A DNA stretch of 64,000 nucleotides from Streptomyces sp. CA-278952. GTDB lineage: Bacteria; Actinomycetota; Actinomycetes; Streptomycetales; Streptomycetaceae. This document shows, one piece after another, positions 54,512 to 64,000 of the stretch. The stretch lies in contig NZ_CP112880.1 in the NCBI RefSeq assembly GCF_028747205.1, positions 6,607,501 to 6,671,500 of the forward strand. Direction: 5' to 3'. The translations under genes were made by a program, and so were the position numbers. How positions within the stretch are numbered: position 1 is the first letter of the stretch; every line of letters starts with the position of its first letter. The notes below the pieces were generated by a model. The model was given only the letters and a program-made list of their open reading frames with translations, ran no database searches and was not told where the DNA came from.

Positions 54512-55579
<1,068 letters not shown>

Positions 55580-55780: not shown

Positions 55781-56260
55781 GTGAATCGCATCGGAGTGAC
55801 CGGTCACCGCTCCATCCCCGCCGAGGCCCAGGCCCATGTGCTCGCGGGTCTGCGGTCCGCGCTGTGCGGCCTCGACGGCGCGACGCACGCGCTCTCCAGC
55901 CTGGCGGTCGGCGCCGACCAGCTCTTCGCCGACCTCGCCCTCGCCTGCGGCGCCGAACTGACCGCCGTGATCCCCAGCGGCGACTACGAGGCCTGCTTCG
56001 AGAACGCCGTCGACCTCGCCCGCTACCGGATGCTCAAGGCGCGCGCGGCGCGGGAGGTCCGGCTCGACTTCCCGCACTCCACCGACGAGGCGTACTACGC
56101 GGCGGGCGCCTACATCGCCGACCACTGCGACCGGCTGCTCGCCGTCTGGGACGGTCTCCCGGCCCGCGGCCTCGGCGGCACGGGCGACATCGTGACGTAC
56201 GCCCGCACCCTGGGCCGCCCGGTCACCGTGATCTGGCGCGACGGAGTACTGCGCGGCTGA
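55781..56260 (+). CDS. SLOG-domain (Rossmann, LOG/DprA-like) protein
   Basis: 159 aa, GTG 55781. The N-terminus NRIGVTGHRSIPAEAQAHVL, then HALSSLAVGADQLFADLALA, ELTAVIPSGDYEACFENAVD, and WDGLPARGLGGTGDIVTYAR correspond to the SLOG fold: GxTGHR loop, SSLAxGAD, and GGTGD near the nucleotide site. SLOG proteins are predicted sensors or processors of nucleotide-derived signals and are often encoded beside SLATT membrane effectors. The neighbour at 56331-57257 is such a SLATT protein, in convergent orientation. Confidence 0.83.
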   Translation: MNRIGVTGHRSIPAEAQAHVLAGLRSALCGLDGATHALSSLAVGADQLFADLALACGAELTAVIPSGDYEACFENAVDLARYRMLKARAAREVRLDFPHSTDEAYYAAGAYIADHCDRLLAVWDGLPARGLGGTGDIVTYARTLGRPVTVIWRDGVLRG

Positions 56261-56330: not shown

Positions 56331-57257
56331 TCACACGCGATGTCTGACCAGCCAGTCGGTGTGCTCGGGCGACACGATCCGCTCGGTCTCGAACACCGCC
56401 GCCGGCCAGTGCCGCTCGGTGAGGGTGGTCTCCATGGCGGCCTGCATCGACTCCAGGTCCTTCTCCACCAGCGAGTGCGCCGAGATCAGCGGATGGTGCC
56501 GGCGCATCTCGTTCCAGGCGAGACAGGCCGCCGCCGCCGCGGAGAACGCCCCGGTCAGGCCGAACGAGCGCCCCACCCCGAAGGTCTGGAACACGCTCAG
56601 CGCCAACGCCGGCAGCGTCAGCGCGACAATGGCGCCCGACCACAGGATCGCCCCGCGCCGGGAGGCCTGCTGACGTCTGCGGTACCAGCGCCGCTGTTCG
56701 ATGAGCCGGTCCCGTACATACGTTTCCTTGCGGACCGTGTAGGCCTTGTTCCGTAACGCGCGCATGGATTCCGTGATGAGGCCGCCGGAATCCGGCAGTT
56801 CCTCGCGCGGGTCGGCCCAGCCCACTTTTCGCAGCTCCTGGAGGCCGTCCTCCAGGCGATTGGCGAACAGCGCCTCCGGGTGCTCGGACGCGCTGTCGAA
56901 CGGCGCGCCGTGGACCGCGTAGCGCCAGCAGTTGGACTTGATGAACTCGGCCGCCGAGCGGTTCAGTTGCCAGTGCGACTTTGCTTTGCGGTGAGAGGCG
57001 AGGAAGGTCGCGAAGAGCACGCCCAGATAGGCCAGCACCGCGGCGCCGTACAGGGCACGGGCCGCCGGGCCGTCCTCGGTGTGCCAGGGGAGCGCCGCGG
57101 GCACCGTGCCCGCCACGAGCAGCGCGAGCTGCGCCCGGGTGGTGTTCACGGCCTCACGCTGGCGGGCCACGGCGACCGCGTCCGTGTGGTGGAACAGCGC
57201 CGGCAGGTCGTCGTTCCTGAAGACCATGGACCTCAGCGGCTCGGGCAACGCCGTCAT
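56331..57257 (-). CDS. SLATT/DUF4231 two-TM membrane protein
   Basis: 308 aa, ATG 57257 with GGAGG 5 nt upstream; a longer in-frame start at 57626 has no ribosome-binding site. Two pairs of hydrophobic segments: TRAQLALLVAGTVPAALPWH with AVLAYLGVLFATFLA (about 45-95), and AILWSGAIVALTLPALALSV with FSAAAAACLAWNEM (about 205-265). Long flanking helices include KSHWQLNRSAAEFIKSNCWR and EKDLESMQAAMETTLTERHW. This is the DUF4231/SLATT layout, predicted to act as a pore-like effector with SLOG or SMODS sensors. No direct experimental role for this member. Confidence 0.82.
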   Translation of the reverse strand: MTALPEPLRSMVFRNDDLPALFHHTDAVAVARQREAVNTTRAQLALLVAGTVPAALPWHTEDGPAARALYGAAVLAYLGVLFATFLASHRKAKSHWQLNRSAAEFIKSNCWRYAVHGAPFDSASEHPEALFANRLEDGLQELRKVGWADPREELPDSGGLITESMRALRNKAYTVRKETYVRDRLIEQRRWYRRRQQASRRGAILWSGAIVALTLPALALSVFQTFGVGRSFGLTGAFSAAAAACLAWNEMRRHHPLISAHSLVEKDLESMQAAMETTLTERHWPAAVFETERIVSPEHTDWLVRHRV

Positions 57258-57994
57258 GGACGCCTCCGTCTGCAGTTGTCGTATGACCCGGCCGGCCGTG
57301 GTGCCTGCCCCGCCCGGGCCACGAGAGTAGGGGGGAGCACCCGACGCGGCAAGAGCGTCCCGGCACCTCGGACGGTCACCACGACAGGGTTCGGCCACGT
57401 GCGGGCGGGTGTCCTTCCTCACATCGCGGGGCTGTGGCAAGGTGGTGCAACTGGGTTGAGCGAACAGTGAGTTGCGGCCCCCGTGCGGTGGGCGCGACCA
57501 CCTCCGTGCGGGGAGGGGCCATCGAGGGTGACCGGGATGGTGGGCGTCTGCTCGCAGCGGCGAGCCGAGCGGGTCGACGCACCGCGCGCCCGGGCCCGGG
57601 CCGCGGGTGCCGCGGGCGACGGCCACGAACCCGCCCCGGACCGCGTGCGCATGGCCCGGGACGGAACACGATCTCCCTGGCGAGAGGCTGGTGAACGGGT
57701 GAACCGCCGTCCCGCCGGAGCCTCCCGCCGCCCGCCGTCCGGGACCCGCGCGGTGCGCGCGCCCGGCACCTGTGCCGGCGGTCTCGCCGGTGGCGGGAAG
57801 CCTCTCACCTGCGCGGGCCGGCGGCAGCGAGGCCGGCCCCCGGGGCCGCCGGTTCCGCCGCTCGTCCCCCGCTCACCCGAGCGGCCGAGCGGAAGGTGCG
57901 TTTCGAGTTTCGAATCCAGGTGTGAAGGCCGCTCCGCCGGCATGTGGAAGAGCCTCCGCGGTAGTAAAGTGCGCGTGCCGGGACGTGTGATGAC
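57258..57994. other. 737-bp gap upstream of fxsA
   Basis: Divergent region between the SLATT gene and the Fxs cluster. Frames open on both strands here (for example plus 57483-58061, minus 57419-58000) but show random high-GC composition and no ribosome-binding site, so I do not call genes. The last 100 bp fall in GC and contain TAGTAA at 57962-57967, a possible -10 for fxsA. The unusual length leaves room for regulatory sites or a small RNA. Confidence 0.5.
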
Positions 57995-58222
57995 ATGCAA
58001 TCCGGCAGCGTTTCAATGTCCGGAAACAGACCCCTTCAGGATCCCCCTAGGACGGCCGTGAAGACCTACGGAACCACCCCCGCCTTCGCCTCCGCGAAGA
58101 CCCGCGCGACCCTCTCGGCGACCGACGTCCACAGCGCCGAGGCCGCCAGGAAGATCAACCGCGTATGCGGTGCGACAACGGCCAGGTCCACCCGCATCTC
58201 CACGTTCAATTCGGCTCTCTGA
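57995..58222 (+). CDS. fxsA: FxSxx-COOH peptide precursor (FxsA-type RiPP)
   Basis: 75 aa from ATG 57995 (ATG 58016 gives 68 aa; neither has a strong ribosome-binding site). The last five residues are FNSAL, the FxSxx-COOH motif that names the family, preceded by TARSTRIST. The upstream part SGNRPLQDPPRTAVKTYGTT then PAFASAKTRATLSATDVHSA is leader-like. A second Phe-x-Ser (F31-A-S33) lies internally. Ends 30 nt before fxsB. Maturation by FxsB would link the Phe ring to the residue at +2 as a three-residue cyclophane, as established for FxsB-type enzymes. Sequence apart from the C-terminus is not the most common FxsA type. Confidence 0.8.
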   Translation: MQSGSVSMSGNRPLQDPPRTAVKTYGTTPAFASAKTRATLSATDVHSAEAARKINRVCGATTARSTRISTFNSAL

Positions 58223-58252
58223 GTCGATGTCAGAAGCGGCTAGAATGGCGGG

Positions 58253-60595
58253 ATGACAGGACCCCTGGTCCCCTTCCGTGAATTCGTGCTGAAAGTGCAC
58301 AGCAGGTGCGATCTGGCCTGTGATCATTGTTATGTCTACGAACATGCCGACCAGAGCTGGCTGACACGCCCCAAGACCATCTCTGACGAGGCGATTTCCT
58401 GGACTGCCCGGCGCCTGGCCGAGCATGCGACGACTCATGCGCTTCCCTCCGTAACAGTGATCCTGCACGGTGGGGAACCGCTCCTGGCGGGGCCCGCGCG
58501 ACTGCGACGGGTCTGCGAGGAGCTCGGCTCGGCTCTGAACGGCATCGCTGAGCTGGACCTCAGGATCCACACCAACGGCGTCCAGCTCAGCCCCCGTTAC
58601 CTCGACCTCTTCGACGAGTTCCACGTCCGGGTCGGGATCTCGCTCGACGGCGACCGCGCGGCCAACGACCGCCACCGCCGATTCGCCGACGGACGCAGCA
58701 GCCACCCGATGGTGCTGCGCGCCGTCGAACTGCTCCGCGAGGAGCGCTACCGCCACCTGGACCTCGGCCTGCTGTGCACGGTCGACATCCACAACGACCC
58801 GGTGGCCGTGCAGGACGCTCTCGCCGGACTCGAACCCCCACTCGTCGACTTCCTGCTGCCGCACGCCACCTGGGACGACCCGCCCCCGCGGCCGGACGGA
58901 TCGCCCACCGCGTACGCCGACTGGCTCCTGACGGCCTTCGACCGCTGGACGGAGCAGGGCCGCCCCATGCCCGTCCGCTTGTTCGCCTCGGTGCTCTCCA
59001 GCCTGAACGGCGGCCCCAGCCTCACCGAGTCCCTCGGCCTGGCCCCCACCGACCTCGTCGTCATCGAGACCGACGGGCAGCTGGAACAGGTCGACTCGCT
59101 CAAGAGCGCCTACGAGGGTGCCGCCGCCACCGGGTTCGACGTCTTCCGCAACACCTTCGACGAGGTCGCGGCCCACCCCGGCGTCCGGGCGCGGCAGCTC
59201 GGTCTGGCCGGGGTCAGCGAGACCTGTCGCCGCTGCCCCGTCGTGCGCTCGTGCGGCGGCGGGCTCTACACCCACCGGTACCGCTCCGGCAGCGGCCCCG
59301 AAGGTCTCGACAGCGGCTTCGACAACCCGTCGGTCTACTGCGCCGACCTGGCCGCCCTGATCCGGGGCATCGAGGAGCGTACGGCCGCGGCCACCGAGTC
59401 GCCCGCCGTCCGGGCGCCGGACGAACTGCTCGCCGCCCATCAGGACCTGACCCGGACCCTGCTCGCGGCTCTCCACGACACCCTCGACGGGCAGGGCGGG
59501 GCCCTCTGGGACGAGGCCTGGCGGCTCGCGGCGACGCTGGAGGCGGACGCCCCGGGCGCCGAGGCGCTCGACACGGTGCTCGCCCACCCCTACACCCGCA
59601 CCTGGCTGGTCGACGCCCTGGCGGACGTGGAGGCGGGACGCGGCCTGGCGGAACCCGCCGCCGAACGGCTCGGCGCCACCGTGGCCGCCGCCGCCGTCCG
59701 CGCCGGACGCGACCTGGCCGTGCCGGTGGCGTACCGGGACGGAGGCCTGTACCTGCCCACCCTCGGCACCGTGGTCCTCGGCGGCCCGGGGGAGCGGGGA
59801 ACGGCCGTGGTGCGCGCCACGGGGGACGGATTCCTCGTCCGCCGGCCGCGGGACACGCCCGGCACGGAGCTGCGCATCGCCCCCGATGAGCCCGAGGGCC
59901 CGCACTGGCTGCCCGTACACGTCCTGCGCCGGGCACCCGCCCCCGTACTCCTGCTGGACGACCTCGACCCCCTCCGCGACTGCTTCGACGCCCCCGCGAC
60001 CGACCGCCTGGAAGCGGAGGAGGCCGACGCCTGGGCGCACCGGGTCGGCGAAGCCTGGTCGCTGCTGGCCGACGCCGTACCCGGCCAGGCGGCCGAGGCG
60101 GCCCTGACGTTGACCACGCTGACCCCGCTGTCCACCGGGGACGCCGAGCCGGGGCGCCACGGGCCCGGCGCGCTCGGCGTCGGGCCGTCGGTGGAGCCGA
60201 ACGAACTGGCACTCGGCCTGCTGAGCGGATTCCGCCGGGCGAAACTGCGGGCGCTCGGTGAAGTGACGGATCTTTACGCCTTGGACGGTACCTGGGAACA
60301 TCGGACGCCCTGGGGGAACGAACACGTGACGTTCTCCCGACTGCTGGCCGAGACATTCGAACGGGCGGGGCTCGGGCTTTACGACCCGCGCTTCCTCACG
60401 GGTGTTCCGGAAGCTCTCGACAAGATCGAAAACGCGGCGGAGGTGACGGTCGACGGAAAACAGCTGATCTCCGCTGTCCGCAAGGAGATCAGCGGAACAC
60501 GGAGTGCGACCGAGAAGAATCGCGGCAGGAGCTTCCCGCCGTCCGGTCATGCGGCGAACGTCCGGGGATCTGACCAGAAAGTGACGTTCGAATGA
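58253..60595 (+). CDS. fxsB: FxsB-type cyclophane-forming radical SAM/SPASM maturase with fused C-terminal domain
   Basis: 780 aa, ATG 58253. The radical SAM cluster is KVHSRCDLACDHCYVYEH (C-x3-C-x2-C, about residues 19-26), followed by ILHGGEPLLAGP and ISLDGDRAANDRHRRF. SPASM cysteines are at SETCRRCPVVRSCGGGLYTH and VYC (about 323-366). Residues about 385-760 are a fused domain like the HExxH-type (aKG-HExxH) unit of related maturases, but the expected HExxHxK reads SGFRRAK at 658-664, losing both His and the Glu, while downstream RTPWGNEHVTFSRLLAETFE is kept. It therefore probably binds peptide rather than catalysing. Acts on FxsA in the cytoplasm. Confidence 0.9.
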   Translation: MTGPLVPFREFVLKVHSRCDLACDHCYVYEHADQSWLTRPKTISDEAISWTARRLAEHATTHALPSVTVILHGGEPLLAGPARLRRVCEELGSALNGIAELDLRIHTNGVQLSPRYLDLFDEFHVRVGISLDGDRAANDRHRRFADGRSSHPMVLRAVELLREERYRHLDLGLLCTVDIHNDPVAVQDALAGLEPPLVDFLLPHATWDDPPPRPDGSPTAYADWLLTAFDRWTEQGRPMPVRLFASVLSSLNGGPSLTESLGLAPTDLVVIETDGQLEQVDSLKSAYEGAAATGFDVFRNTFDEVAAHPGVRARQLGLAGVSETCRRCPVVRSCGGGLYTHRYRSGSGPEGLDSGFDNPSVYCADLAALIRGIEERTAAATESPAVRAPDELLAAHQDLTRTLLAALHDTLDGQGGALWDEAWRLAATLEADAPGAEALDTVLAHPYTRTWLVDALADVEAGRGLAEPAAERLGATVAAAAVRAGRDLAVPVAYRDGGLYLPTLGTVVLGGPGERGTAVVRATGDGFLVRRPRDTPGTELRIAPDEPEGPHWLPVHVLRRAPAPVLLLDDLDPLRDCFDAPATDRLEAEEADAWAHRVGEAWSLLADAVPGQAAEAALTLTTLTPLSTGDAEPGRHGPGALGVGPSVEPNELALGLLSGFRRAKLRALGEVTDLYALDGTWEHRTPWGNEHVTFSRLLAETFERAGLGLYDPRFLTGVPEALDKIENAAEVTVDGKQLISAVRKEISGTRSATEKNRGRSFPPSGHAANVRGSDQKVTFE

Positions 60596-60699
60596 CCGAA
60601 CGGCAGGGGGGTGGAAAGCGGTCCGCTCCGGAATGATGAGTTCGCTTCCACTCCCTTCCTCCTTCCGGGATGCGAGTGCTCACACAGGACGGGGGTCGT

Positions 60700-62010
60700 G
60701 TGCACGCATCGACGCAACAGCGAGCGGTGGGCCATCGGCCGTATTTCTTTCTGAGTTACGCCCACACGCCGGGGTACGGCGGCGGCACGGACCCCGATAT
60801 GTGGGTCGAACGGCTTTTCCAGGACCTCTGCGGCCACGTGATGGCCATGACCGACTTACCCGCGGGCGCGCCGGCGGGCTTCATGGACCGGGAGATACGT
60901 TCCGGAGAGGGCTGGTCGGAACGGCTCGGCGATGTCCTCGCCACCTGCCGGGTCTTCGTCCCGCTGTTCTCGCCGCGCTACTTCGCCAGCGAGATGTGCG
61001 GCAAGGAGTGGTACGCCTTCGAACAGCGCGCCATCCACCACCGCGCCCGCTCCAACCAGCCCGCCGAGGCCATCGTCCCGGCACTCTGGGTACCGGTGCC
61101 GCCGAGCCAACTGCCCGGCTCCGCGGAGCGGTTGCAGTTCAACCACCGTGATTTCGGGGAACGGTACGTCAGCGACGGCCTGTACGGCCTGATCAAGCTC
61201 AGACTCTTCGCCGAGGAGTACGAACGGGCCGTCTACGAACTGGCCAAACGCATCGTGAGCGTCGCCGACTCGGTCCGCATCGACACCGGCCGGCCCGTCG
61301 ACTACCGCCTCGCGCCCAGCGCCTTCGGCTCCCCCAGCAGCGGAGTCGGCGCCCCCCGGCCGATGCAGATCACCATCGCGGCGCCGACGCGCCACGATCT
61401 GCCCGAGGGCCGCAACAGCGACCACTACGGCGACCACCCCCAGGACTGGAACCCCTACTACCCGGCCGCCGCGCGCCCGCTGGCCTATGTGGCGGAGGAA
61501 CTGGTCCGCTCCCTCAACTACCAGGCCGTCATCACCTCGTTCGACGAGGACCGGCACGACGGCAAGACCCCGCCCACCACCCCGGAGATCCTGCTCGTCG
61601 ACCGCTGGGCCCTCCGGGACGAGGACCACCGCCGCAGGCTCGCCGCCTTCGACGCGGAGAACCGGCCCTGGGTGACCATGGTCGTGCCGTGGAGCCGCGA
61701 CGACCACCAGAGCAGAGCGGCGGAGAGCGAGCTCACCCAGACGCTCGAAGCGACCATGCCGATCAAGATGGGCCAGGGCCGGGCCCTGTGCCGGGCCGCC
61801 GCGAAGGGAGTGCCCACCATGGAGGCGTTCGGTCAACTCCTGCCCCAGGTGGTCGAGGTGGCCGCCCAGCAGTACCTCAAGCACGCCAAGGCCTACCCTC
61901 CCGGATCCGGCGGCGGCTCCGGTGAGCGGACCCGGCTCACCGGCCCCATGGGCAGCACGAGTTACATCCCCGACCCGCACGACCCTGCGACGGAAGCGGA
62001 GGACCTATGA
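60700..62010 (+). CDS. fxsC: FxsC, TIR-like domain protein of the Fxs system
   Basis: 436 aa from GTG 60700 (GGACGGGGG upstream); ATG 60670 would add ten residues. N-terminal TIR-like domain: HRPYFFLSYAHTPGYGGGTD, FMDREIRSGEGWSERLGDVL, CRVFVPLFSPRYFASEMCGK followed by EWYAFEQRA, with a Glu in the place of the TIR NADase glutamate. A second alpha/beta region (about 230-400) includes EILLVDRWALRDEDHRRRLA and WVTMVVPWSRDDHQSRAAES, typical of FxsC proteins. Codon 53 (60856-60858) is TTA, so translation should need the bldA tRNA. The stop overlaps the fxsT start (ATGA). Confidence 0.88.
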   Translation: MHASTQQRAVGHRPYFFLSYAHTPGYGGGTDPDMWVERLFQDLCGHVMAMTDLPAGAPAGFMDREIRSGEGWSERLGDVLATCRVFVPLFSPRYFASEMCGKEWYAFEQRAIHHRARSNQPAEAIVPALWVPVPPSQLPGSAERLQFNHRDFGERYVSDGLYGLIKLRLFAEEYERAVYELAKRIVSVADSVRIDTGRPVDYRLAPSAFGSPSSGVGAPRPMQITIAAPTRHDLPEGRNSDHYGDHPQDWNPYYPAAARPLAYVAEELVRSLNYQAVITSFDEDRHDGKTPPTTPEILLVDRWALRDEDHRRRLAAFDAENRPWVTMVVPWSRDDHQSRAAESELTQTLEATMPIKMGQGRALCRAAAKGVPTMEAFGQLLPQVVEVAAQQYLKHAKAYPPGSGGGSGERTRLTGPMGSTSYIPDPHDPATEAEDL

Positions 62011-64000
62011 GTGCCGGTCGTGACGGGCGCATCGTCACCTTCTACTCGTACAAGGGCGGTACCGGGCGCACCATGGCGCTCGCCAACACCGCCTGGATCC
62101 TCGCGGCCAACGGCAAGCGGGTGCTGGCCGTCGACTGGGACCTGGAGGCCCCCGGGCTGCACCGGTTCTTCCACCCCTTCCTCGACCCGGCCACCCTCGG
62201 CGCCACCACCGGCGTGATCGACCTGATCACCGAGTACGCCTGGGCCGCGACCAGCCCCGCCCAGCGCCCCGAGGACTGGCACCGCGACTACGCCCGCATC
62301 CAGCCGCACGCCGTGTCGCTGACCCCGGAGTCGCTCGGCTGGGAGTTCCCGCAGGGCGGGACGCTCGACTTCGTCTCCGCCGGACGGCAGAACCGCGAAT
62401 ACTCCGCGACCGTCTCCACCTTCGACTGGGACAACTTCTACGACCGGTTCGGCGGCGGCCACTTCTTCGACGCGCTGCGCGACGACATGAAGGCCAACTA
62501 CGACTACGTCCTCATCGACAGCCGGACCGGCCTCAGCGACATCGCCGACATCTGCACCGTCCACCTCCCGGACGTGCTCGTCGACTGCTTCACCCTCAGC
62601 GACCAGTCCATCGACGGCGCGGCCTCCGTCGCCCGCCAGATCGCCGAGCGCAACACCGGCCGCCCCATCGCCCTCTACCCCGTCCCGATGCGCATCGACG
62701 AGGGTGAGAAGGAGAAGGCGGACGCCGGGCGGGCGCTGGCCCGGCTCAAGTTCGACCGGCTCCCGCGCGACCTGTCCGGCGACGAACTCACCGCCTACTG
62801 GGGCGCGGTGGAGATTCCCTACCGGCCCTACTACGCCTACGAGGAGACGCTCGCCACCTTCGGGGACGAGGCCGGGCTCTCCAACTCGCTGCTCTCCGCC
62901 TTCGAACGGCTCGTCGCGGTCATCACCGACCGGGAGATCACCTCGATGCCCCCGATCGGCGAGGAGGTCCGCCTGCGGATCCGCGACGCCTTCACCCGGC
63001 GCAGGCCCGCCCTGCCCGCCGATCTCTTCCTCAGCTATGTGGCGGAGAACCGGATGTGGGCCGACTGGCTCGAATCGATCCTCACCCGGGCCGGCTTCCG
63101 GGTGGTCCCGCGTGACGTCTCCGCCGAACGCTCCCCCGACGAGCCAGCCGACACCACCGCGGAGAGCGCCGCCCGCACCGTCGTGCTGCTCTCCAGCGCC
63201 TACCTGAAGTCCCAGCGCGCGGTCGAGCTGTGGGAGCGGACCGCCGCGGAGGCCGTCGGCAGCGGCCGCCGCCGACTGGTCCCCCTGCGGGTCGGGGACG
63301 TACGCCTGAGCGCCCCCTACATCGACCGCAACCCCGTCGACCTCTTCCGGCTGGACGAGGTGCACGCCACCACCGCCGTGATGCGGGCCCTGGATCGCCC
63401 GGTGCAGGTGGCGGACGGGGTCTCGCCCGGGCCCCGCTTCCCCGGCACCGTGCCGAGGATCTGGAACGCGCCGCCCCGCAACCCCGGCTTCACCGGCCGC
63501 TCGCTCGTCCTGGAGCGGATGCGCGACCAGCTCGGCGGCGGCCTGGCCGTCGTCCTGCCGCAGCCGCAGACCCTGTACGGACTCGGCGGCGTCGGCAAGA
63601 CCCAGGTGGCCCTGGAATACGTGCACCGCTTCATGGCCGACTACGACCTGGTGTGGTGGATATCGTCCGAGCAGACCGACGACGTGGTCGCCTCGCTCGC
63701 CGAGCTCGCCGTCCGGCTCGGCGCCCAGGGCGGCGACGACATGGCCGCCGCCTCCCAGGAGGCCGTCGACCTGCTGCGGCGCGGCGTGCCCTCGGACCGC
63801 TGGCTGCTGGTCTTCGACAACGCGGACGACCCCGAGCAGCTGCGCCGCTACTTCCCGCAGGGCGGCTCCGGCCACATCCTGGTGACCTCCCGCAACCAGA
63901 GCTGGTCCCAGCACGGGGACGCGCTGCCCGTGGACGTCTTCCTGCGCGAGGAGTCGATCGAACACCTCCAGCGCCGGGCGCCGGGGCTCAGCGACGAGGA
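62007..64000 (+). CDS. fxsT: FxsT-like protein: KGGxGR ATPase + TIR + NB-ARC (3' end outside window)
   Basis: At least 664 codons, ATG 62007, still open at 64000. Residues 1-320: ParA/MinD-like ATPase, VTFYSYKGGTGRTMALANTA (variant Walker A, KGGxGR with Arg21), VDWDLEAPGLHRFFHPFLDP and YDYVLIDSRTGLSDIADICT. Residues about 336-470: TIR-like, DLFLSYVAENRMWADWLESI, VVLLSSAYLKSQRAVELWER. Residues about 495-664+: NB-ARC, RNPGFTGRSLVLERMRDQLG, P-loop LYGLGGVGKTQVALEYVHRF, Walker B WLLVFDNADDPEQLRRYFPQ, GHILVTSRNQSW. Family members continue into TPR repeats. Overlaps fxsC; an NLR-like signalling architecture. Confidence 0.9.
   Translation, partial: MSAGRDGRIVTFYSYKGGTGRTMALANTAWILAANGKRVLAVDWDLEAPGLHRFFHPFLDPATLGATTGVIDLITEYAWAATSPAQRPEDWHRDYARIQPHAVSLTPESLGWEFPQGGTLDFVSAGRQNREYSATVSTFDWDNFYDRFGGGHFFDALRDDMKANYDYVLIDSRTGLSDIADICTVHLPDVLVDCFTLSDQSIDGAASVARQIAERNTGRPIALYPVPMRIDEGEKEKADAGRALARLKFDRLPRDLSGDELTAYWGAVEIPYRPYYAYEETLATFGDEAGLSNSLLSAFERLVAVITDREITSMPPIGEEVRLRIRDAFTRRRPALPADLFLSYVAENRMWADWLESILTRAGFRVVPRDVSAERSPDEPADTTAESAARTVVLLSSAYLKSQRAVELWERTAAEAVGSGRRRLVPLRVGDVRLSAPYIDRNPVDLFRLDEVHATTAVMRALDRPVQVADGVSPGPRFPGTVPRIWNAPPRNPGFTGRSLVLERMRDQLGGGLAVVLPQPQTLYGLGGVGKTQVALEYVHRFMADYDLVWWISSEQTDDVVASLAELAVRLGAQGGDDMAAASQEAVDLLRRGVPSDRWLLVFDNADDPEQLRRYFPQGGSGHILVTSRNQSWSQHGDALPVDVFLREESIEHLQRRAPGLSDE

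Follow-up and report, generated by a model that had tools for sequence, protein, structure and literature searches.

What a modified peptide does in the company of TIR and NLR-like proteins is the question raised by the fxs operon, which closes a 64-kb stretch of DNA from Streptomyces sp. CA-278952 (bases 6607501-6671500 of the 8.21-Mb single-contig genome), referred to here as the window. A first-pass annotation made from the sequence alone regarded this link as unexplained, in agreement with the relevant passages of Kaur et al. 2020 (PMC7159879), which offer only a "peptide toxin or signal". The best explanation, to which we give a probability of roughly 0.4, puts fxs at the centre of a larger locus, probably immune-like in function, in which the peptide, FxsT, FxsC, a SLOG protein and a SLATT protein would act as a cascade. 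The divergent SLATT and the SLOG genes just upstream of the operon had been overlooked, and they are the likeliest executor and sensor of a TIR signal. The functional neighbourhood likely reaches from about position 55781 to beyond the downstream end of the window.

Genes fxsA, fxsB, fxsC and fxsT all lie on the + strand, in the peptide, maturase, TIR protein and NLR-like protein arrangement that the annotation had described, and a search with FxsA/B/C/T profile hidden Markov models (HMMs) bears out its assignment to the FxSxx-COOH system. Each product exceeds its curated NCBIfam cut-off, FxsT when taken at full length. FxsA (open reading frame 57995-58222) scores 32.9 bits with TIGR04268 (cut-off 28) and ends in FNSAL, its C-terminal FxSxx-COOH motif. 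FxsB scores 601.6 bits with TIGR04269 (cut-off 370) and 523.9 bits with NF040587, the "lost HExxH" model (225), and FxsC (open reading frame 60670-62010) 238 bits with NF040588 (130) and 262.6 bits with TIGR04276 (55), together with a match to Pfam TIR_2. Contrary to the annotation, the cluster is not complete within the window: FxsT (1311 amino acids, L002:7008-10943) continues for some 1.94 kb beyond it. The window part of FxsT alone gives 264.7 bits against the NF040586 cut-off of 300, and the full-length protein 1042.5 bits, with 150.2 bits for the KGGVGR AAA model NF047398 (cut-off 90). Its Pfam domain order is KGGTGR ParA-like, TIR, NB-ARC and TPRs.

Intergenic spacing is 30 nt between fxsA and fxsB and either 74 nt (ATG 60670) or 104 nt (GTG 60700) between fxsB and fxsC, and fxsC overlaps fxsT by 4 nt. 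The annotated value of 104 nt is the likelier one because a Shine-Dalgarno-like (SD-like) AGGACGGGG precedes GTG 60700. The fxsA start, previously placed at ATG 57995, is probably GTG 58058 instead, since an SD-like AGGACGG and the GTG are conserved in an alignment of 15 loci; TAAAGT upstream is a putative fxsA promoter element. In the whole genome, fxsA has one match above cut-off, and fxsB one match at E ≤ 1e-60.

For comparison, 150 genomes of the genus were surveyed, 95 of which carry fxsB, and 49 of the 55 best FxsB matches were fetched as loci (E ≤ 1.4e-162; loci and genomes are cited by L and G numbers). The six skipped matches are in G139 (two contigs), G033, G084, G097 and G041. These 49 loci are labelled FxsBH-type by score and a long open frame, the fused domain being tested by HMM only in the window protein. 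Both fxsC and fxsT occur in 47 of them, an alpha/beta hydrolase gene in 47, SLATT in 37 and SLOG in 36; a gene for an AAC(3)-like acetyltransferase is present in 28.

The two TIR proteins of the operon differ in a consistent manner. FxsC retains the CGxE Glu in 46/47 proteins and, as judged by eye, in the divergent-subtype loci L204, L216 and L213 as well. At the matching position in FxsT, which was set by motif and by hand, Val or Leu is found in 44/47 sequences and Glu in 0/47, with the flanking Ser present in 47/47 and Trp in 45/47. FxsT was therefore rejected as an NADase by motif, and of the two TIR proteins a NAD-consuming role is supported by sequence only for FxsC. The annotation's proposal of NAD-consuming TIR proteins is accordingly retained for FxsC only, and FxsC is singled out as the first TIR protein to assay. 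With its catalytic Glu kept, it is a candidate maker of a cyclic ADP-ribose-type signal. The NB-ARC P-loop Lys is present in 47/47 FxsT. The best named matches of the window FxsC are from Streptomyces, among them S. anulatus with 98-99% identity.

The SLATT protein, taken in its longer open reading frame (56331-57626), matches Pfam PF18184 at 122.6 bits and PF18181 at 114.5 bits. The 159-residue protein encoded beside it has no Pfam match, and its sequence found no match in the PDB. Its AlphaFold model (predicted local distance difference test score, pLDDT, 92.5) shows a SLOG fold, with YpsA/DUF1273, DprA and ShosA as the best PDB folds, and by this model the protein is a YpsA/DprA-like member of the SLOG superfamily. 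Passages of PMC9503650 describe TIR-SLATT neighbourhoods in phages, in which SLATT is a predicted ADP-ribose-regulated membrane effector, and include cyclic ADP-ribose sensors among YpsA-like SLOGs. Nine loci with remote SLATT matches were also fetched (L220-L228); SLATT was gene-called in five, the other four not being judged, and in three of these five a TIR-WD40 protein (TIR_2 or ThsB_TIR over cut-off) is encoded nearby, adjoining SLATT in L225 as well as in L228 and one gene off in L227; all three loci are from other genomes of the genus. Retention of the Glu in FxsC, the TIR-WD40 neighbours of SLATT and the account in PMC9503650 together suggest, by domain context, an axis in which FxsC would emit the signal, SLOG would read it and SLATT would execute the response.

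A mechanism can be proposed on this ground. The unit would comprise SLOG, the divergent SLATT, fxsA-fxsB-fxsC-fxsT and the alpha/beta hydrolase. FxsB would close Phe-Asn-Ser of the FxsA C-terminus into a cyclophane, and the product would remain inside the cell as a ligand or safety catch of FxsT; the annotation's own proposal, in which the peptide would determine the state of an NLR-like module, is consistent with the sequence data. FxsT would be an NLR-like switch composed of a pseudo-ParA domain (KGGTGR), a pseudo-TIR domain, an NB-ARC domain with intact P-loop and TPRs. Once tripped, it would recruit FxsC via TIR-TIR contacts, and FxsC, the sole TIR protein here with the catalytic Glu, would produce a NAD-derived nucleotide. 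The YpsA/DprA-like SLOG protein would sense or clear this nucleotide and so gate SLATT, a protein with two transmembrane (TM) segments which would then damage the membrane. We infer the enzymology of FxsC, sensing by SLOG, the SLATT pore and any trigger. Taken in this exact form, as a Thoeris-like NLR cascade from release of the cyclophane peptide through an FxsC signal to a SLATT pore, the scheme is tentative and rather unlikely to hold in every step.

Linkage between SLATT and fxs was counted in two sets of genomes. Close SLATT relatives (≥ 43% identity) number 42 in the 150 genomes, and 40 of them are located within 10 kb of fxsB. The two exceptions are G028, on a broken contig, and G057, where the gene is unlinked; among six remote SLATT matches none is near fxsB. 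A class-wide draw of 296 genomes gave close SLATTs (≥ 44%) in nine, two of which also belong to the genus draw, and in all nine an FxsC match lies no more than 10 kb away. Five other SLATT matches in this draw are remote (28-35%) and come from genomes without FxsC.

The order SLOG-SLATT-fxs-hydrolase is kept under different flanks in L050, L055, L057, L071 and L073-L075 (about 50% identity), and 8/49 loci show an in-place inversion of fxs, with SLATT and the hydrolase on either side keeping their order (L066, L068, L076, L078, L082, L083, L086 and L088). L204, L216 and L229 carry the same SLATT-SLOG pair next to fxs of a deeply divergent subtype, and the association thus recurs with two fxs subtypes. 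FxsB, FxsC and FxsT of L204, and FxsC and FxsT of L216, exceed NCBIfam cut-offs, the remaining assignments being made by BLAST. Identity between L204 and L050 is 74% for SLATT, 65% for SLOG, 50% for FxsB, 30% for FxsC and 42% for FxsT, compared with 70%, 71%, 79%, 72% and 72%, respectively, between L050 and L055; L229 covers part of the fxs locus, and its FxsC was left out of the identity comparison. In a SLATT tree built from rows longer than 180 amino acids (32 of the 37 SLATTs from fetched loci and 10 others, with a long-branch warning for the outgroup), L204, L216 and L229 join a single clade of FxsBH-linked SLATTs (98/94 support). Identity of 74% in SLATT next to 30% in FxsC therefore suggests re-association, and not only inherited order. 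In addition, G005 has lost both SLATT and fxs, with fragments of SLOG and the hydrolase left side by side. Kept order and inversion, pairing with the divergent subtype and this joint loss suggest that SLOG-SLATT and fxs are functionally linked.

Several results weigh against the cascade reading. Within 18 kb, SLATT is missing from 12/49 loci and SLOG from 13/49 (in L077 SLOG is further off), and therefore the fxs core can exist without either. G057 has kept SLOG-SLATT at the site with fxsB 464 kb away. SLATT or SLOG was found in 0/18 fxs loci of other genera, and the 296 genomes of the class-wide draw gave no close SLATT outside the genus. In close relatives the locus occupies a fixed chromosomal site and is not a mobile island. 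At the level of proteins, FxsC of L079 has Gln for the Glu of CGxE, and the predicted FxsC model is poor in the TIR part (mean pLDDT 61.8 overall). This model has no match among PDB folds at E ≤ 0.001, only low-probability TIR matches, the best at E = 0.013; the FxsC sequence gave three PDB matches at E 0.39-0.51, which are of no use. In the SLOG fold search, BcThsA SLOG with 3'cADPR ranks only 26th, YpsA and DprA being nearer. A search of seven locus proteins against PADLOC-DB 2.0.0 recognized no full defence system, the partial matches being FxsB to pVip (30.2 bits) and FxsT to PDC-M28B (77.8 and 42.6 bits).

The absences from a quarter or so of the loci and from other genera, the case of G057, and the position of many linked cases at one chromosomal site between protease genes speak for a rival explanation, in which SLOG-SLATT and the hydrolase stand beside fxs by inherited gene order only, with the four fxs genes as one unit and SLATT-SLOG as a separate system. 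This explanation is unlikely in our estimate, as it has to accommodate linkage in different flanks, after in-place inversion and beside the divergent subtype, as well as the loss of SLATT and fxs together in G005. The upstream genes of loci without SLATT were considered as alternative effectors and rejected: in L052 they are metabolic by eye (SDR, amidohydrolase, acyl-CoA ligase and MaoC-like), and these families are also present in L060, L069 and L084.

The same question of inheritance concerns the alpha/beta hydrolase (Abhydrolase_1), whose gene is downstream and convergent, about 2 kb past the window end. Its triad is intact in 47/47 proteins, and it flanks fxs in 6/18 loci of other genera; we guess that it acts on small molecules or acyl groups. 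The stretch from SLOG to the hydrolase is flanked by a pair of paralogous genes for streptogrisin-like serine proteases (window 54575-55579 and L002:12114-13397), which go with the chromosomal site, not with fxs. In nine genomes picked for a hydrolase apart from the fxs locus, the hydrolase gene adjoins one or two protease genes, with DUF1684 in 8/9 (weak or partial matches in L205-L207); DUF1684-protease-hydrolase-protease is an arrangement without fxs seen in several genomes. A hydrolase tree of 64 of 65 rows (L203 was too short), rooted at midpoint and with open forks near the base, places the hydrolases apart from fxs in one clade (99/98), with L064, still accompanied by fxsB, inside it, within fxs-linked diversity. 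Given this nesting and the presence of the hydrolase beside fxs in other families, the view that the hydrolase merely belongs to the site was rejected; a better fit is that fxs was lost and the hydrolase stayed. L064 (G054) itself appears as a half-decayed locus: it has kept the hydrolase, fxsB and a peptide resembling FxsA, and neither fxsC nor fxsT was found.

It is improbable, in turn, that fxs is a developmental or stress-signalling module instead of an immune one, with FxsT integrating a peptide signal in growing mycelium. TIR, NB-ARC, SLOG and SLATT each belong to the domains typical of conflict systems and the presence of the locus is patchy, against which stand the commonness of fxsB in the genus, the fixed site in close relatives and the lack of a PADLOC system. 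One TTA codon each was found in SLATT (56331-57257) and fxsC (60670-62010), and none in five other genes checked; TTA codons point to possible bldA-dependent timing, and this too would suit a developmental role.

CxxxCxxC and four SPASM Cys are kept in 49/49 FxsB, the window protein included. HExxH is found in 4/49 (L042, L079, L080 and L085) and is missing from the window FxsB; all four HExxH-bearing loci are without SLATT/SLOG, and their FxsA proteins end in FQSSV or FQSSL, not in the FNSAL type. Many FxsA proteins keep, by eye, a central stretch (R-VPL--ID) and the exact C-terminal FxSxx, the remainder being variable. We take MscB to be an FxsB-family enzyme. According to passages of a review (PMC11002830) MscB joins Phe C4 to Ser C-beta, and by analogy with this family chemistry the same bond, giving a three-residue Phe-Asn-Ser cyclophane, is predicted for FxsA. 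Inspection by eye of the 22 largest clusters from the 49 loci showed no recurring family of peptidases or peptide exporters; among the flank genes, an NCS1-type permease was present in seven loci and a YhgE-like membrane protein likewise in seven. Because nothing recognized in the locus cuts or exports the peptide, we propose that the product stays intracellular, and modified FxsA may bind FxsT as a ligand, perhaps at the TPRs.

Kaur et al. 2020 (PMC7159879) propose release of the peptide toxin or signal by a zincin-like peptidase, which is taken here to be the HExxH domain; with HExxH missing from the window FxsB, the window operon has no evident cleaving enzyme. Characterized HExxH enzymes acting on ribosomally synthesized and post-translationally modified peptides (RiPPs) are, in the relevant part of PMC13060819, iron/alpha-ketoglutarate oxygenases, mostly hydroxylases, and one HExxH enzyme pair is reported to cleave the peptide backbone oxidatively (PMC12636437). 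The least probable explanation, namely secretion of FxsA as a peptide toxin, antibiotic or signal, with the TIR/NLR proteins regulating or guarding its production, can draw on the zincin proposal and on antibiotics such as darobactin, reported among other radical-SAM cross-linked peptides, but it is opposed by the lack of a recurring peptide exporter or leader peptidase among the clusters judged by eye, by a fused FxsB domain without HExxH in a class of oxygenases (the one cleaving pair aside), and by the attachment of the secreted proteases to the chromosomal site.

The four-gene fxs core is already described (NCBI models and PMC7159879) and is not new, all four genes here exceeding the cut-offs of the FxSxx-COOH/FxsABCT models (TIGR04268, TIGR04269, NF040587, NF040588, TIGR04276 and NF040586). 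For standalone peptide-processing systems in actinobacteria, Kaur et al. likewise describe an AP-ATPase with TIR and an inactive MinD/ParA-like domain. In the passages on these systems no SLATT, SLOG or alpha/beta-hydrolase partner is mentioned; the window locus differs further by FxsB without HExxH and by having no AAC(3)-like gene. Likeness to Thoeris (ThsA/ThsB) consists in a Glu-bearing TIR protein with a SLOG protein and a plausible TIR-to-SLOG nucleotide axis. However, no SIR2-SLOG ThsA was recognized, the SLOG protein here being separate and without SIR2; the executor would be SLATT, and NLR and RiPP parts are added. PADLOC gave no Thoeris match, and hence no ThsA effector (SIR2-SLOG or Macro-TM), among the seven locus proteins. 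Phage TIR-SLATT pairs, as presented in passages of PMC9503650, share the TIR gene near a two-TM SLATT gene, whereas the SLOG gene, the NLR-like protein and the cyclophane RiPP are additional here. MscB/FxsB-type triceptide enzymes share the radical SAM/SPASM enzyme and the Phe-x-Ser motif (PMC11002830, in part), but the window FxsB has a fused C-terminal domain without HExxH and its cyclophane chemistry is predicted. As for VMAP/FtsH ternary systems, no vWA or MoxR gene was recognized by eye among L002 open reading frames, no dedicated HMM being run.

No published phenotype for Fxs systems was found in the literature searched, nor was a link of SLOG-SLATT to the standalone fxs core in open-licence literature (PMC7159879 figures and supplements aside). 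Relative to the literature searched, the SLOG-SLATT-hydrolase extension, recurring across fxs subtypes, looks new. It gives Fxs systems a predicted sensor and executor, and the role of the modified peptide becomes testable with few experiments.

Table 1. Features of the fxs locus within the window (positions of the 64-kb stretch)
Feature	Position	Strand	Basis and remarks
YpsA/DprA-like SLOG protein, 159 amino acids, GTG start; proposed sensor/processor of nucleotide signal	55781..56260	+	AlphaFold model and fold search
SLATT protein, 308 amino acids (SLATT_3 + SLATT_1); predicted two-TM pore-type effector	56331..57257	-	Pfam PF18184, PF18181
Probable decayed 3' end of accessory membrane-protein gene	57567..57650	+	MAFFT alignment of intergenic region, by eye
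TAAAGT, -10-like element in conserved block upstream of fxsA	57965..57970	+	Within 8 invariant columns of 15-locus alignment
fxsA precursor, 54 amino acids from GTG, end ...TFNSAL-COOH	58058..58222	+	TIGR04268; conserved SD and GTG
fxsB (FxsBH type), 780 amino acids, radical SAM/SPASM maturase with HExxH-type domain without HExxH	58253..60595	+	TIGR04269, NF040587
fxsC, TIR-like protein with a further alpha/beta domain; begins at GTG 60700 or ATG 60670	60700..62010	+	NF040588, TIGR04276, TIR_2
fxsT, first 664 of 1311 amino acids: KGGTGR ParA-like domain, TIR without catalytic Glu, start of NB-ARC	62007..64000	+	NF040586, NF047398, Pfam; TPRs beyond window

The accessory membrane-protein gene between SLATT and fxsA, of which the window probably retains a relic, is intact in eight SLATT-bearing relatives (L044, L045, L046, L047, L048, L058, L061 and L065) and is also present in SLATT-less L064. 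A relic gave a tblastn match in L043 (6e-8); the one at 57567-57650 in the window locus gave none at E ≤ 1e-3.

A second FxsT-type protein of 1470 amino acids is encoded elsewhere (G000:C1:954166-956613; L091:10155-14567, - strand; 843.9 and 401.7 bits). It carries a SAV_2336 N-terminal domain in place of ParA/TIR, and no fxsB or fxsC match was found within the surrounding 18 kb. It is possibly a trans-acting or repurposed receptor.

The AAC(3)-like acetyltransferase gene (Pfam Antibiotic_NAT, e.g. L051:9222-9929) is usually placed between fxsB and fxsC and has the fxs orientation in 26/28 loci. In the divergent locus L213 (16077-17963) the AAC(3)-like domain forms the C-terminal part of a 628-residue protein. 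Such an acetyltransferase may acylate the peptide.

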